Of a DNA stretch of 64,000 bases, positions 7,362-56,671 are shown one piece after another. The translations under genes were made by a program, and so were the position numbers. Under the pieces are notes generated by a model. That model had not been told where the DNA came from, made no database searches, and saw only the letters and a program-made list of their open reading frames with translations. Positions within the stretch are counted from its first letter, which is position 1, and every line of letters starts with the position of its first letter. The stretch spans positions 36,722 to 100,721 of the forward strand of contig JAFIHF010000027.1 in the NCBI GenBank assembly GCA_017848855.1. The letters run 5' to 3'. This stretch comes from Rhodanobacter denitrificans (GTDB taxonomy: Bacteria > Pseudomonadota > Gammaproteobacteria > Xanthomonadales > Rhodanobacteraceae).

Positions 7362-8978
7362 ATGACCGACACACCGTGGTGGCGCGGCGCCGTCATCTAC
7401 CAGATCTACCCGCGCAGCTTCCTCGACACCGACGGCGACGGCGTGGGCGACCTGCCGGGCATCATCGAGCGGCTCGACTACGTGGCCGGCCTGGGTGTGG
7501 ACGCGATCTGGATCGCGCCGTTCTTCCGCTCGCCGATGGCGGACTTCGGCTACGACATCGCCGATCCCTGCGACGTCGACCCGCTGTTCGGCACGCTCGA
7601 CGATTTCGACCGGCTGCTGCGCGAGGCGCATGCACGCGGGCTCAAGGTGATGATCGACCAGGTGCTCAGCCACACCTCGGACGAGCACGCCTGGTTCCGC
7701 GAGAGCCGGCAGAGCCGCGACAACGCCAAGGCCGACTGGTACGTGTGGGCCGACGCGAAGGAAGACGGCACGCCGCCGAACAACTGGCTGTCGATCTTCG
7801 GCGGCAGCGCGTGGCAGTGGGAGCCGCGGCGCGGCCAGTACTACCTGCACAACTTCCTCGCCGCGCAGCCCGACCTCAACTTCCACCATCCGGAAGTGCG
7901 CGCGGCGGTGCTGGACAACCTGCGCTTCTGGCTGGAGCGCGGCGTGGACGGCTTCCGCCTCGACTCGATCAACTTCTGCTTCCACGACGCCGCGCTGCGC
8001 GACAACCCGCCCAAGCCCAAGGCCGAACGCACCGGCCGCGGCTTCAGCGCCGACAATCCCTACGCGTTCCAGTACCACTGGTACAACAACACGCAGCCGG
8101 AGAACCTCGCCTTCCTCGAAGACCTGCGCGCGCTGATGGACCGCTACCCCGGCAGCGCCACGCTGGGCGAGATCTCCTCGGAGGATTCGCTGGCGACGAT
8201 GGCCGAGTACACCAGCGGCCGCCGCCTGCACATGGGCTACAGCTTCGAACTGCTCACCGACGACTTCAGCGCCGCCTACATCCGCGACACCGTGCGCGCG
8301 CAGGAAGCGAAGATGAGCGAAGGCTGGCCGTGCTGGGCGATCTCCAACCACGACGTGGAGCGCGTGCTCAGCCGCTGGGGCAACGGCCACGGCTCCGCCG
8401 CGATGGCGAACCAGCTCACCGCGCTGGTGTGCTCGCTGCGCGGCTCGGTGTGCGTGTACCAGGGCGAGGAACTTGGCCTCACCGAGGCCGAGCTGCCCTA
8501 CGAGGCGCTGCGCGATCCCTACGGCATCGCGTTCTGGCCCGAGTTCAAGGGCCGCGACGGCTGCCGCACGCCGATGCCGTGGAGCGAAGGCGACCACGCC
8601 GGCTTCAGCAGCGCCACGCCGTGGCTGCCGGTGCCACCCGAACACCGCGTGCTGGACGTGGCGCGGCAGCAGCTCGATCCGGCTTCCGCGCTCAACGGCT
8701 ACCGCCGCTTCATGCACTGGCGCCGCGCGCAACCTGCGCTGCGGCTGGGCAGCATCCGCTTCCTCGACACCGCCGAGCCGGTGCTGGCTTTCGTGCGCGA
8801 GCTGGGCGAGGAGCGCGTACTGGTGGCGTTCAATCTCTCCGCTGGGGCGGTGGAGTGTGTGTTGCCGGTGGCGGGTACTCTGCTGCCGCTCGATGGCCAC
8901 GGTCTGGTGACTGGTGCGCTGGATGGTGCGACGTTGCGGCTGCCGGCGCATGGGAGTTTTTACGCGCGCGTGGGGTGA
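7362..8978 (+). CDS. cytoplasmic alpha-glucosidase (oligo-glucosidase), GH13
   Basis: 538 residues starting MTDTPWWRGAVIYQIYPRSF; an in-frame ATG 11 codons earlier (7329) is possible but the family normally begins at this WWRGAVIYQ block. There is no signal peptide, so it acts in the cytoplasm. GH13 motifs: DQVLSHTSDEH, GFRLDSINF (nucleophile Asp), LGEISSED (acid/base Glu), ISNHDVERV. It would cleave imported maltose or malto-oligosaccharides to glucose. It is transcribed divergently from the receptor operon and shares its operator region. It is followed by the first long palindromic repeat element. Confidence 0.9.
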   Translation: MTDTPWWRGAVIYQIYPRSFLDTDGDGVGDLPGIIERLDYVAGLGVDAIWIAPFFRSPMADFGYDIADPCDVDPLFGTLDDFDRLLREAHARGLKVMIDQVLSHTSDEHAWFRESRQSRDNAKADWYVWADAKEDGTPPNNWLSIFGGSAWQWEPRRGQYYLHNFLAAQPDLNFHHPEVRAAVLDNLRFWLERGVDGFRLDSINFCFHDAALRDNPPKPKAERTGRGFSADNPYAFQYHWYNNTQPENLAFLEDLRALMDRYPGSATLGEISSEDSLATMAEYTSGRRLHMGYSFELLTDDFSAAYIRDTVRAQEAKMSEGWPCWAISNHDVERVLSRWGNGHGSAAMANQLTALVCSLRGSVCVYQGEELGLTEAELPYEALRDPYGIAFWPEFKGRDGCRTPMPWSEGDHAGFSSATPWLPVPPEHRVLDVARQQLDPASALNGYRRFMHWRRAQPALRLGSIRFLDTAEPVLAFVRELGEERVLVAFNLSAGAVECVLPVAGTLLPLDGHGLVTGALDGATLRLPAHGSFYARVG

Positions 8979-9036: not shown

Positions 9037-9943
9037 CCCTCTCCCCCAACATCGTTGGGGGAGAGGGTTGGGGTGAGGGGGGCTTTGGCTTTTGCGTTAT
9101 CGCAAGTTTCAAAGCGGTTTCGAGCGCCTGCCGCAAGCGACAGAGCGGTTTCGAGCCGCTGCCGCGGCCCGAGCTACTTTCTCTTTGCGTGCCCAAAGAG
9201 AAAGTAGCCAAAGAGAAAGGGCACCCCGCGGCGGCGCTTGCCGGGCGTCCTGCCCGGCAAGTGCGTGAGCCGTGACCGGGCTTTTCGGCCGGGCTTCCTG
9301 CCCGGTCGAAAAGGCATCGCCATCCTTGGCGATGCCCGCTGCGCGGCCTGATCGTCCACGGCTCACCGCCACCGAGGGGCCCCAGAAAGGCAGGCGCGCA
9401 TCGTGCGCGCCAGAAGCAAGAGCGTCGCAAGCTTGCGGGCTTTTGCTCCCTCCCCTGCATGCAGGGGAGGGCTGGGGTGGGGTGCTGTTGATCTTGCTGT
9501 TGCTTCTGCGCGCTGGGAGCGCGCTGCTCTACCCGGGGCCCCTATGGCGCGGCGGGTGGGTGGAGGAAAGTCCGCAGGATGGCCCGCACGGATGCGAGCC
9601 AGTTTTTCGCCGGCACACGGAGGTGCCGTCGAAAAACCCCGGAACCCGCCCGCGCACCCGGAAGGCAGGATGCCTGGAGGGCGCGCCATCGGGGTGTCGT
9701 TTCTCTTTGGTGACTTTCTCTTTGGACAAGCAAAGAGAAAGTCACTCGGGCCGCGGCAGCGGCTCGAAACCGCTTTGTTTCTTGCGGCAGGCGCACGAAA
9801 GCCCGCCGCAGGCGAGCCCAATTGCGGAAGTGAAAGGTTCTCGCGAGCACCCACCCCTCACCCCGACCCTCTCCTCGCTCCTCAAAGCCGCGGCCATCCA
9901 TGGCCGCTCCCCGCGTGCCCCGCAGGGGGGAGGGAGAAGAGCG
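9037..9943 (+). repeat. long mirrored-hairpin repeat element, copy 1 (uninterrupted)
   Basis: About 0.9 kb of non-genic DNA filling the gap between the GH13 gene and bioC. The left arm (9100-9240) has the block CTACTTTCTCTTTGCGTG / CCCAAAGAGAAAGTAG; the right arm (9700-9800) has the same block in reverse orientation with GTGACTTTCTCTTTG, flanked on both sides by CAAAGCGGTTTCGAGC and GCTGCCGCGGCCCGAG-type sequence. Inside each arm sit further hairpins, including one formed by GCCAGTTTTTCGCCGG with CCGTCGAAAAACC near 9600. The ends carry CCCTCTCCCC palindromes. Other copies: 45095-47690 (same orientation, split by an intron) and 55800-56671 (inverted). Open frames in it are repeat translations, not genes. 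Confidence 0.85.
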
Positions 9944-9947
9944 CGCC

Positions 9948-10850
9948 TCAGCGCCGCCGCGACCCGCGAAGACTGCTGATCGAGAAGCTGGCCACCTCGC
10001 CGCCACCGGGAAGCCGCCGCGACTGCCCGGGCGGCGGCCCCCACGCGTGTGCGGTCACCACCTCCCACGTGGCGGGAATGCGGCCATCCACGCGCATCGC
10101 CTCGTAGGCGGCAAGCATCGCGCGGTAGTGGCTCTTGCCGGTGAGGTGGCGTTCGCGTGCGGCGTCGGCATGGGTGGCGCCCAGGCCGCGCAGTTCTTCC
10201 AGCAGCTTGCGCGGTTCGCTGTAGGTGAGCGTGTAGCGTTCCACGTCGAGCACCGGGTCGCGCAGGCCGGCGTTGAGCATCGCGTCGCCGACGTCGTGCA
10301 TGTCGAGGAAGCGGCTGACGTGGGAGTGGCCGTCCACCGCGGCCCAGGCCGCGCGCAGTTCCTTCAGCGTGTCGGGGCCGAAGCTGGAGAACGCGAGCAG
10401 GCCGCCGGGTTTCAGCACGCGGCAGCATTCGCCGAACAGCGCGGCGAGGTCGTCGACCCACTGGAAGCACAGGTTGGAGTGCAGCAGGTCCACGCTGTGG
10501 TCGGGGAAGGGCAGGGCGGTGGCTTCGGCGCAGACGCGGCGGAAGGGCTTCAACCAGCCGCTGTGGCGCTTCGCCGCCTGCAGCATCGGCAGCGCGAGAT
10601 CCACCGCGATCACTTCGGCCTTGGGGTAGCGCGTCTTGAGCTGCGCAGTGCCGAGGCCGGTGCCCGCGCCCACGTCGAGCACGCGTTCGGGGAGCAGGCC
10701 CTTGCGGTCCGGCGATTCGTCGTAGAAGGTCAGCCGGTCGAGCAGCTGGCCTTGCACGACGCGCTGCAGGGCGTCGTGCTGCTCGTAGCTGCGCGCGGCG
10801 CGGCTGAAGTTGCGGCGCACCTGGGCGCGGTCGAGGTGGAAATCGCTCAT
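9948..10850 (-). CDS. bioC: malonyl-ACP O-methyltransferase BioC
   Basis: 300 residues from ATG 10850 (MSDFHLDRAQVRRNFSRAA); an ATG at 10865 that overlaps the bioH stop would add five residues. Class I SAM methyltransferase: VLDVGAGTGLGT (motif I), the acidic VIAVDLALPML strand, then LLHSNLCFQWVDD and VLKPGGLLAFSSFGP. BioC methylates malonyl-ACP so that fatty-acid synthase can build the pimeloyl chain. It is the last gene of the biotin operon, directly after bioH. The C-terminus is longer than the E. coli enzyme and ends in a basic, low-complexity tail just before the long repeat, so the stop may have been displaced by repeat sequence. Confidence 0.9.
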   Translation of the reverse strand: MSDFHLDRAQVRRNFSRAARSYEQHDALQRVVQGQLLDRLTFYDESPDRKGLLPERVLDVGAGTGLGTAQLKTRYPKAEVIAVDLALPMLQAAKRHSGWLKPFRRVCAEATALPFPDHSVDLLHSNLCFQWVDDLAALFGECCRVLKPGGLLAFSSFGPDTLKELRAAWAAVDGHSHVSRFLDMHDVGDAMLNAGLRDPVLDVERYTLTYSEPRKLLEELRGLGATHADAARERHLTGKSHYRAMLAAYEAMRVDGRIPATWEVVTAHAWGPPPGQSRRLPGGGEVASFSISSLRGSRRR

Positions 10851-12550: not shown

Positions 12551-13873
<1,323 letters not shown>

Positions 13874-13954
13874 CGTGGAAGCAGGGGCGAAGAGCGCCCC
13901 CTCTCCCTGGCCCTCTCCCCCAAGCGATGCTTGGGGGAGAGGGGATGGAAAAGC

Positions 13955-45094: not shown

Positions 45095-45652
45095 TCTCCC
45101 TCTCCCCCAACTTGTTGGGGGAGAGGGTTGGGGTGAGGGGGCTGCTTTTGTCTTTGCGCTTTCGCGAGATTCAAAGCGGTTTCGGACGCCTGCCGGCGCC
45201 CGAGCTACTTTCTCTTTGCGTGCCCAAAGAGAAAGTAGCCAAAGAGAAAGGGCACCCCGCGGCGGCGCTTTCCGTCCATCCGTGGACGGAAAGTGCGTGA
45301 GCCGTGGCCGGGCTTTTCGGCCGGGCTTCCTGCCCGGTCGAAAAGGCGAGCCCCTCCATGGGCTCGCCCGCTACGCGGCCTGATCGTCCCCGGCTCACCG
45401 CCGCCGAGGGGCTCTCGGAACAGCAGGCGCGCATCGTGCGCGCCAGAAGCAGAGCAAGAGCGAAGCCCCGCAAGCTTGCAGGTTGTCGCTCCCTCCCCTG
45501 CGTGCAGGGGAGGGCTGGGGTGGGGTGCTCTTGATCTTGCCGTTGCTTCTGCGCGCTGGGAGCGCGCTGCTCTACCCGGGGCCCCTATGGCGCGGCGGGC
45601 GGGTGGAGGAAAGTCCGCAGGATGGCCCGCACGGATGCGGGCCAGTTTTTCG
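45095..45652 (+). repeat. long mirrored-hairpin repeat element, copy 2, left part
   Basis: Same order as copy 1: CCCTCTCCCCCAAC palindrome, CAAAGCGGTTTCG, CTACTTTCTCTTTGCGTG/CCCAAAGAGAAAGTAG, nested hairpins, CTCTACCCGGGGCCCC, GGAGGAAAGTCCGCAGGATGG. It ends at TGGCCCGCA-CGGA-TGCGGGCCA-GTTTTTCG, a terminator-like stem, exactly where the group II intron begins. It resumes at 47505. Confidence 0.85.
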
Positions 45653-47504
<1,852 letters not shown>

Positions 47505-47690
47505 CCGGGACAGGAGTCCCGTCGAAAAACCCCGTAACCCGCTCGCGCACCCGCAGGGCAGGATGCTCGGAGGGCGCGCCATCGGGGTGCCGTTTCTCTT
47601 TGGTGACTTTCTCTTTGGGCAAGCAAAGAGAAAGTCACTCGGGCCGCGGCAGCGGCTCGAAACCACTTTGTTCCTTGCGAAATCGTGAAA
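47505..47690 (+). repeat. long mirrored-hairpin repeat element, copy 2, right part
   Basis: Continues copy 2 after the intron: CCGGGACAGGAGTCCCGTCGAAAAACCCC, GGGCGCGCCATCGGGGTG, the TTTCTCTTTGGTGACTTTCTC/CAAAGAGAAAGTCAC block and CGGCTCGAAACCACTTTG. It is truncated on the right compared with copy 1, lacking the final CCTCTCC palindromes, and ends about 45 nt before the ABC ATPase stop codon. Confidence 0.85.
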
Positions 47691-55799: not shown

Positions 55800-56671
55800 G
55801 TGCCCCCTCTCCCCGACGGGGCACGCGGGGAGCGGCCATGGATGGCCGCGGCTTTGAGGAGCGAGGAGAGGGTTGGGGTGAGGGGCGGGTGCTCGCGATA
55901 ACCGTTCGGTTGCGCACCTTGGCTCGCCTGCGGCGGGCTTTCGTGCGCCTGACGCAAGGAACAGAGCGATTTCGTCCACCTGCCGGCGGCCGAGTTCCTT
56001 TCTCTTTGCGTGGCCAAAGAGAAAGGAACCAAAGAGAAAGGCCACCCCGATGGCGCGCCCTCCAGGCATCCTGCCTTCCGGGTGCGCGGGCGGGTGGCGG
56101 GGTTTTTCGACGGGACTCCTGTCCCGGCGAAAAACTGGCTCGCATCCGTGCGAGCCATCCTGACGGACTTTCCTCCACCCGCCCGCCGCGCCATAGGGGC
56201 CCCGGGTAGAGCAGCGCGCTCCCAGCGCGCAGAAGCAACAGCCAGAGCAAAGCCAAGCCAAGCCGAAGCACGCGCCGCACCAACTCCCTCTCCCCCAAGC
56301 TTCGCTTGGGGGAGAGGGTCGGGGTGAGGGGGGGGCTTTGGCTTCTGCGCGCAGGAGCGCGCCGCTTTTCCCGGGGCCCCTCGACGGCGGTGAGCCGTGG
56401 ACGAAAAGGCCGCGCAGCGGGCGAGCCCACGGATGGGCTCGCCTTTTCGACCGGACAGGAGTCCGGCCGAAAAGCCCGGCCACGGCTCACGGACTTTCCG
56501 TCCATGGATGGACGGAAAGCGCCGCCGCGGGGTGTCGTTTTCTCTTGGCTACTTCTCTTTTGGACAAGCAAAAGAGAAGTAGCTCGGGCGCCGGCAGGCG
56601 CTCGAAACCGCTTTGAAACTTGCGATAACGCGAAGAGCAAAAGCCCTCGCCCGCTAGCGGGCGAGGGGAGT
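55800..56671 (-). repeat. long mirrored-hairpin repeat element, copy 3 (inverted, uninterrupted)
   Basis: Copies 1 and 2 in the opposite orientation: GCGGGGAGCGGCCATGGATGGCCGC, TTTCTCTTTGCGTGGCCAAAGAGAAAGG, GGTTTTTCGACGGGACTCCTGTCCCGGCGAAAAACTGG (given here as one hairpin; 56099-56136), CTCCCAGCGCGCAGAAGC, CTCTCCCCCAAGCTTCGCTTGGGGGAGAG, and the second TTCTCTTTTGG block near 56540. It shows the empty target of the intron. The kilobase from 55775 to 56805 contains no gene. Confidence 0.85.

Follow-up and report, generated by a model that had tools for sequence, protein, structure and literature searches.

Positions 9037-9943 of the window, the stretch of 64,000 nucleotides of Rhodanobacter denitrificans DNA analysed here, hold a 0.9-kb non-coding element, flanked by a gene that ends at 8978 and, on the other side, by a gene on the other strand that ends near 9949 by reading. 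The element is built of two mirror-image arms (over 175 nt, 9118-9292 and 9626-9800 show 79% complementarity), and its 761-nt core has a fold energy of -524 kcal/mol (z = -14.7 against 20 shuffles). The double block TTTCTCTTTG occurs 15 times in the window and not once in 100 shuffles. The inverted two-arm element of 0.9 kb described in the original prediction was thereby borne out, and the modules it named were each found where expected. A genome-wide search for the double block, which it had also proposed, returned 164 matches in the 3.49-Mb home genome, compared with 21 for the reversed control.

Eleven modules were mapped in the window and in 40 further fetched loci, and the order O-P-T-A-C-B-T-P-O recurred (Table 1), reproducing the conserved module order that had been predicted. 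The claim of three copies in 64 kb also stood, copy 2 being split by an intron and copy 3 lying in the opposite orientation. Copies 1 and 2 sit between convergent genes (stop codons read directly). Other architectures among the mapped loci are half-elements, an A/A form and forms with a different right arm. The fetched stretches of the home genome contain 44 element intervals, and some of those lying at the ends of contigs may be two halves of a single copy. In the P hairpin, alignment revealed that the loop TGCC is constant while the stem varies on both sides, with GCGCC/GGCGC and CCACC/GGTGG as alternatives. That the element contains no gene is true of 9037-9943; elsewhere, copy 2 carries the intron reverse transcriptase, one low-scoring ORF call overlaps the element at locus L013, and a 1.9-kb insert lies between arms B and A at L041 (2806-4733), its ORFs encoding a protein of 313 aa with no match in Pfam or PADLOC and one of 227 aa that belongs to the TauD family. 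The group II intron of copy 2 (1.85 kb) has one match in the home genome and was inserted at the base of an arm B hairpin. It is a guest, separate from the element, and suggests that the folded repeat can serve as a group II intron target.

Table 1. Modules of the element at 9037-9943 and of its two further copies in the window
Feature	Position	Strand	Details and basis
Outer module O, GC-rich class II triplex motif (BoxC/PIT/TM type)	9037-9079	+	three TM-pattern tracts, longer self-pairing first loop
P hairpin GCCGC-TGCC-GCGGC	9155-9168	+	sequence
Left T block	9173-9228	+	Y 9177-9187, loop 9188-9193, R 9194-9204, third tract 9210-9219, tail 9220-9224 (complementary to loop); triplex finder, family mirror tests, loop-tail test
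Arm A	9229-9386	+	ends near GGGGCCCC; 47 pairs, 97.4% of cells paired
Centre	9387-9530		GC-rich mirror block CCCTCCCC...GGGGAGGG-CT-GGGGTGGGG at 9448-9482
Arm B	9531-9696	-	folded like arm A, in the inward reading of the opposite strand; 97.3% of cells paired in 50 pairs
Right T block, inward-facing	9697-9747	-	module mapping, triplex finder
Right P hairpin	9750-9763	-	sequence
Right outer GC-rich module O2	9850-9935	-	sequence, module mapping
Copy 2, left part	45098-45652	+	O, T 45204-45259, arm A, centre, first half of arm B
Group II intron in copy 2	45653-47504	+	RT/maturase ORF 46043-47440; Rfam; Pfam RVT_1, GIIM; boundaries by module matches
Copy 2, right part	47505-47680	-	remaining arm B, T 47591-47640, P; module mapping, triplex finder
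Copy 3, opposite orientation	55805-56634	-	O2, T 55994-56049, B, centre with TM 56286-56330, A, T 56538-56583, P; module mapping, triplex finder

Mirror order and loop-tail complementarity in the T block

Read inward, the TTTCTCTTTG block (the T block) has the order Y-loop-R-turn-R'-tail, in which R' is the mirror of R; R/R' variants in the home genome include CAAAGAGAAAG/CAAAGAGAAAG, CAAAAGAGAAG/CAAGAGAAAAC and CAAAGGAGAAG/CAAGAGGAAAC, among others. Since R' is R read backwards, it cannot pair fully antiparallel with Y when R is asymmetric. We scanned public genomes with a pattern that is neutral between mirror and direct order and obtained at least 125 matches at at least 107 loci. Among the matches listed, 94 of 125 had the hairpin and 31 did not. 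The hairpin matches listed comprised 50 with a symmetric and hence uninformative R and 44 with an asymmetric one, for which the mirror fitted better in 43, equally well in one, and the direct copy better in none. Asymmetric matches listed without the hairpin favoured the direct copy in 21 of 24 cases and the mirror in one, with two ties.

The rule was examined further in its natural register, which starts right behind the turn, by pooling 80 of the at least 107 scan loci with model hits and testing five registers. In 30 distinct asymmetric hairpin blocks, the mirror agreed at 90 of the 96 informative positions and the direct copy at 4; 20 blocks were perfect mirrors and none was a perfect direct copy. 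The 13 asymmetric controls gave 11/42 for the mirror and 22/42 for the direct copy in the same register. One register off, the direct copy agreed at 69 or 68 of the 96 positions and the mirror at 24 or 26, and a separate off-by-one test yielded 24 mirror and 52 direct agreements out of 84. This analysis dropped 9 of the 52 distinct hairpin units and 10 of the 25 controls, which have no [CG]C turn, and left 12 rows unparsed; one row that was kept is an opposite-strand echo (third tract CGGCGGCC) and was counted against the mirror rule. A test with freely placed windows is weak, the mirror being better in 22 of 50 cases, the direct copy in 5 and neither in 23. For 21 distinct core pairs the mirror matched at 60/66 positions, whereas 5000 permutations averaged 34.9 and reached 55 at most. 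The R' tracts are A-rich. Twelve of these pairs are perfect mirrors, 11 of which also fit a direct copy sliding by -2 to +3, GGAG/GAGG alone not doing so; mirror order accounts for all of the perfect mirrors with one fixed register. In 40 further stretches from other genomes, 24 asymmetric pairs gave 62/84 for the mirror and 9/84 for the direct copy. Only 3 of the 24 were perfect mirrors, since the parser often takes in a loop-side base; 5 of the 59 hits in this set were left unparsed, and the set was found with model R2, whose training blocks came from a finder requiring mirror order. The T-block copies are related, so that the mirror counts are not independent. A triplex finder that demands mirror order picked up eight blocks in the window, six of them T blocks and two GC-rich, compared with none in five shuffles; its hits were left out of the mirror evidence, as the finder itself requires that order.

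The loops of T blocks (GTGCC, GTGGC, TTGTC, TTGCT and others) are complementary to their tails (GGCAC, GCCAC, GACAC, AGCAC and others, respectively). The mean loop-tail helix in 60 distinct pairs is 3.92 bp, compared with 2.73 bp after permutation (maximum 3.0 in 1000). Neighbouring T blocks within 900 bp face inward in 21/21 cases in the home genome, in 20/22 in the family and in 17/17 among the scan matches listed, giving 58 inward, 2 tandem and no outward pairs out of 60 in these three sets. A further set, judged by reading, had 19 of 20 pairs inward and one outward (L280), so that 77 of 80 are inward overall.

Mirror constraint, loop-tail complementarity and inward pairing are all read from the sequences compared. 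The order Y-R-R' with R' antiparallel to R is that of a class II (purine-motif) intrastrand triplex, a fold that isolated single DNA strands can adopt according to PMC4666352. T blocks present this layout, with Y, R and then the mirror of R, as judged from sequence, and a pseudoknot may lock the class II intrastrand DNA triplex that they would form. One T block, in a genome of the same order (L085, 517-601), has the non-homopurine stem GGGTCTTG/CAAGACCC and a mirror-like third tract ACCCCGAAGG, and may mix parallel C.G-C with antiparallel purine triads.

Covariation and allele shuffling in the hairpin arms

Arms A and B share a common fold, consisting of an outer stem, one interrupting hairpin and then three enclosed hairpins. 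The A-arm alignment comprised 78 distinct rows, 41 from the home genome and the remainder from the genus and family, and the B-arm alignment 55 rows (25 from the home genome), aligned in the same inward direction. In the 47-pair structure of the A arms, 97.4% of the cells were paired and 29 pairs had changed on both sides, with a covariation score of 0.324 compared with at most 0.076 for slid structures. The corresponding values for the B arms were 97.3%, 29 of 50 pairs and 0.266 compared with at most 0.068, and the covariation of both sets far exceeds the shuffled and slid controls. Seven arms from other genera were rows in both alignments; without them, the A arms were 97.6% paired, with 25/47 pairs changed on both sides. 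The matched changes noticed at first in both arms are real stem covariation across many copies. Covariation analysis had been put forward as a check on the prediction, which was to be given up if many copies lacked compensatory changes or a conserved module order; both were found. The hairpin loops mostly keep a TCC core and the stems alternate among few alleles. In the 41 A arms of the home genome, the three hairpins occur in 23 of 36 possible allele combinations, and no linkage between alleles was detectable (p = 0.29, 0.52 and 0.12).

Pairing and compensatory changes are therefore real, as the prediction had it. Its further step to selection on pairing does not follow from them, because quasi-palindrome correction can also generate hairpin covariation, which alone is no proof of selection.

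The gene context of the elements was determined by mapping them relative to gene ends, as had also been suggested. They sit close to the 3' ends of genes and seldom separate a divergent pair, with 12 tandem, 9 convergent and 1 divergent positions among the 22 callable of 44, compared with 30 tandem, 7 convergent and 12 divergent for other gaps longer than 80 bp. In this gene calling, neighbours of copies 1 and 2 went undetected. This context and the strong arm covariation would suit a structured RNA, a bidirectional terminator or an mRNA 3'-end element whose arms are transcribed and fold at gene 3' ends. We consider such an explanation unlikely. If an RNA were under selection, G.U would be expected to replace Watson-Crick pairs more often than A.C does, yet in the variable columns G.U was no commoner than A.C (31 and 45 cells, respectively, in the A arms, 25 and 42 without the seven shared rows, and 32 each in the B arms). 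This count leaves out three further stem columns in which G.U is constant or nearly so, with no A.C counterpart; these columns would be in keeping with an RNA if they are real pairs. No Rfam family covered the element at gathering score, and a permissive scan gave 14 matches, all far below their gathering scores and the best with an E value of 0.018. A resemblance of GAGGAAAGTCCG in arm B to an RNase P motif was dropped, Rfam lending it no support. Purine-motif triplexes cannot form in RNA (PMC4666352), yet the mirror rule is that of the purine motif, and PIT elements are described in the text of the same paper as being without terminator activity. On balance, the G.U/A.C counts and the Rfam result fit selection, or copying, at the DNA level. 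Of the readings offered at the outset, structural RNA is disfavoured by the lack of a G.U excess, by the lack of an Rfam family and by a double block that is mirrored rather than complementary; a composite of mobile palindromes comes closest, although the key modules are triplex-type blocks that had been missed.

Covariation without G.U bias, together with the lack of detectable linkage between hairpin alleles, would also be consistent with neutral palindromes, whose copies are spread by recombination and whose hairpins are kept perfect by template switching, with no selected fold. Orthologous A arms at locus 2 (0.80-0.89) are no closer than paralogous ones (median 0.867, range 0.79-0.94) and point the same way. 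Template switching yields complementary and not mirror copies, however, so the mirror rule of the T blocks is left unexplained, as are their inward orientation and spread over families, and we regard this account as very unlikely.

Distribution and turnover of the element

The first model matched 38 of 61 genomes of relatives, the home genome included. The core model, for which the best 13 candidates per genome were scored, matched 65 of 397 Pseudomonadota genomes, again including the home genome, and 46 of 232 genera, 6 of them outside the class. Among the matches listed, a hairpin with an asymmetric mirrored R was present in Rhodanobacter, Dyella, Xanthomonas, Pseudomonas, Dechloromonas and Mucilaginibacter; in Pseudomaricurvus and Selenomonadales bins, also among the matches listed, R is symmetric and uninformative for the mirror rule. 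Energy minimisation with no shuffle control predicts arrays of hairpins for five interiors, two from Pseudomonas and one each from Dechloromonas, Pseudomaricurvus and Mucilaginibacter. Collections of plasmids and phages, from which records very close to the home genome may be absent, contained no match to the 761-nt core.

Comparison of orthologous sites revealed site polymorphism. At locus 2, seven of 12 genus mates have the element, the A-B interior being inverted in two (G002 and G004) and arm A alone being present in another (G003); in G013, one of the five without the element, 40 bp separate the two flank matches. At locus 3, A or B arms were found in none of 13 mates, with both flanks matched in 9 and one stretch shortened. 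At locus 1, they were found in 2 of 13 mates; both flanks were matched in 3 mates only, of which G007 has no arms. As orthologous A arms at locus 2 are no closer than paralogous ones, copies seem to exchange sequence. Wide distribution, polymorphism, inversion and allele shuffling are all apparent from these genome comparisons. In the neighbourhood of 9037-9943 (locus 1), the three genus mates with both flanks matched (L116, L117 and L118) carry a transporter-like gene that is absent in the home genome and that we take, by eye, to be EamA-type.

High copy number, intergenic location, palindromes, inverted doublets and mosaic structure are features of REP/REPIN/BIME families moved by RAYT (Y1) transposases, and the home genome has two Y1 matches, one with an internal stop. 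Y1 transposases do not track the element across genomes, and RAYT/Y1 was rejected as its mover: four genomes (G011, G035, G032 and G013) have no Y1_Tnp match despite 49, 30, 21 and 7 T matches, while in two of the same family (G030 and G031) Y1 was matched 5 and 18 times and T not at all. The stem extension TAG/GAA/TCA, which varies with its partner, is not the invariant GT(A/G)G by which REPs are defined (PMC3686654), and the units are far larger than REPs, making this explanation highly improbable. The surroundings of the intact Y1 copy (L050) contain no more than a P-like match of 47 nt and an A match of 14 nt. A DDE-transposon MITE with palindromes present by chance would suit the inverted arms, the size of 0.5-0.9 kb, the dispersal and the short empty intergenic gaps at the orthologous site in some relatives, but is extremely improbable given that no target-site duplication is readable in flanking intergenic DNA too diverged for it, that half-elements exist (L132) and that no copy with a transposase, nor any autonomous partner, was found in the loci read.

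Relation to BoxC, PIT and other repeats

Intrastrand triplex motifs, including BoxC in inverted pairs, are already known (BoxC/PIT/TM_ECO, Holder et al. 2015, PMC4666352; Hoyne and Maher as cited there). The T-block element shares with them the class II order Y-R-R', the intergenic location, the many copies and the inverted pairs, which that paper reports in some cases, five of them in E. coli K-12. It differs in that the T blocks are AT-rich, have a loop complementary to the tail and are housed in a 0.5-0.9-kb two-arm element with branched hairpin arms. The T blocks do not match the TM_ECO sequence, for which the pattern is CCCTCNCCC-N3-6-GGGNGAGGG-N3-GGGNGAGGG (PMC4666352). GC-rich blocks of BoxC/PIT/TM type often stand at the ends and in the centre of the element: the O module, CCCTCTCCC...GGGAGAGGG-TTG-GGGTGAGGG, has the three TM_ECO tracts with a first loop longer than that of TM_ECO, and in 41 sources from the home genome it was matched 40 times (loops of 3-25 and 2-4 allowed) and the central block, a TM variant, 19 times. 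Three BoxC/TM-type GC-rich motifs are also clustered in alternating orientation at 13753-13944 of the window, with no match to the T, A or B modules there.

BIMEs and REPINs (PMC3686654) are likewise mosaic intergenic palindromes with inverted doublets; the present element has no RAYT association and no GT(A/G)G, and has much larger units and mirror blocks. With H-DNA mirror repeats, as described in PMC4666352, it shares the mirror symmetry of purine tracts, but here a single strand gives all three tracts, as a palindrome plus a mirror copy and not as one mirror repeat. A word search of the main text of PMC4666352 did not find Xanthomonas, Stenotrophomonas, Rhodanobacter, Lysobacter, Pseudoxanthomonas or Dyella. 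Among the matches listed in the literature search, none described AT-rich pseudoknotted blocks, mirror covariation or the two-arm element, the ITxF database and subscription papers lying outside the search. These three features appear to be new here, as a variant of known intrastrand triplex motifs.

A probable composite DNA-fold repeat

The explanation that we consider probable is a composite repeat that acts as DNA, in which inward-facing triplex-type pseudoknot blocks are combined with branched hairpin arms. Each arm would open with an AT-rich block, of which one strand would fold a Y:R hairpin whose groove takes up R', a further purine tract running antiparallel to R, as a class II purine-motif intrastrand triplex. 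Pairing of loop and tail would add an H-type pseudoknot and lock R' against the stem, and the multi-branched hairpin arm would follow behind the triplex block. The fold would form as DNA, not RNA, upon strand separation in replication or transcription, when each strand could fold one triplex pseudoknot and the hairpins behind it.

In vitro, BoxC/PIT-related motifs bring DNA polymerases to a stop, and in E. coli rearrangements are more frequent at their loci (PMC4666352). The same text reports that PIT elements had no in vivo effect in an earlier study and that DMS footprinting of the chromosome gave no sign of the BoxC triplex. By analogy, the composite fold might stall polymerases and promote recombination, and the inversion, loss and gain seen at the loci compared fit the rearrangement reported for BoxC/PIT-type loci. 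Site polymorphism and copy number suggest that the repeat spreads as a non-autonomous passenger of a putative enzyme, while recombination between copies would homogenise and shuffle the hairpins. It is probably a mosaic, non-autonomous repeat that would act as folded single-stranded DNA, an elaborated variant of BoxC/PIT. The wide occurrence of its relatives suggests that evolution keeps an unusual DNA fold and not a gene or a known RNA. We advance only tentatively, as possible though less than probable, the stronger proposal of a widespread family of locked triple-helix DNA pseudoknots, typically in inward pairs, whose mirror covariation would reflect selection for a DNA triplex in vivo and which would probably be the recognition structure of a putative enzyme acting on single-stranded DNA.

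The relevance of DNA triplexes in cells is a long-standing question, addressed mostly by sequence potential and in vitro data. A third tract that changes in step with the purine tract of the duplex across genera offers a comparative test of the fold, one that hairpin repair cannot mimic, and the BoxC/PIT motif is here tied to a larger composite element. The element may also explain some contig breaks and spurious ORFs in the genomes that carry it, as seen in the home genome only. The repeat probably breaks the assembly there, so that its copy number may be misjudged, since elements lie at or near the start of contigs C1, C10, C12, C14, C36, C37, C55 and C58.
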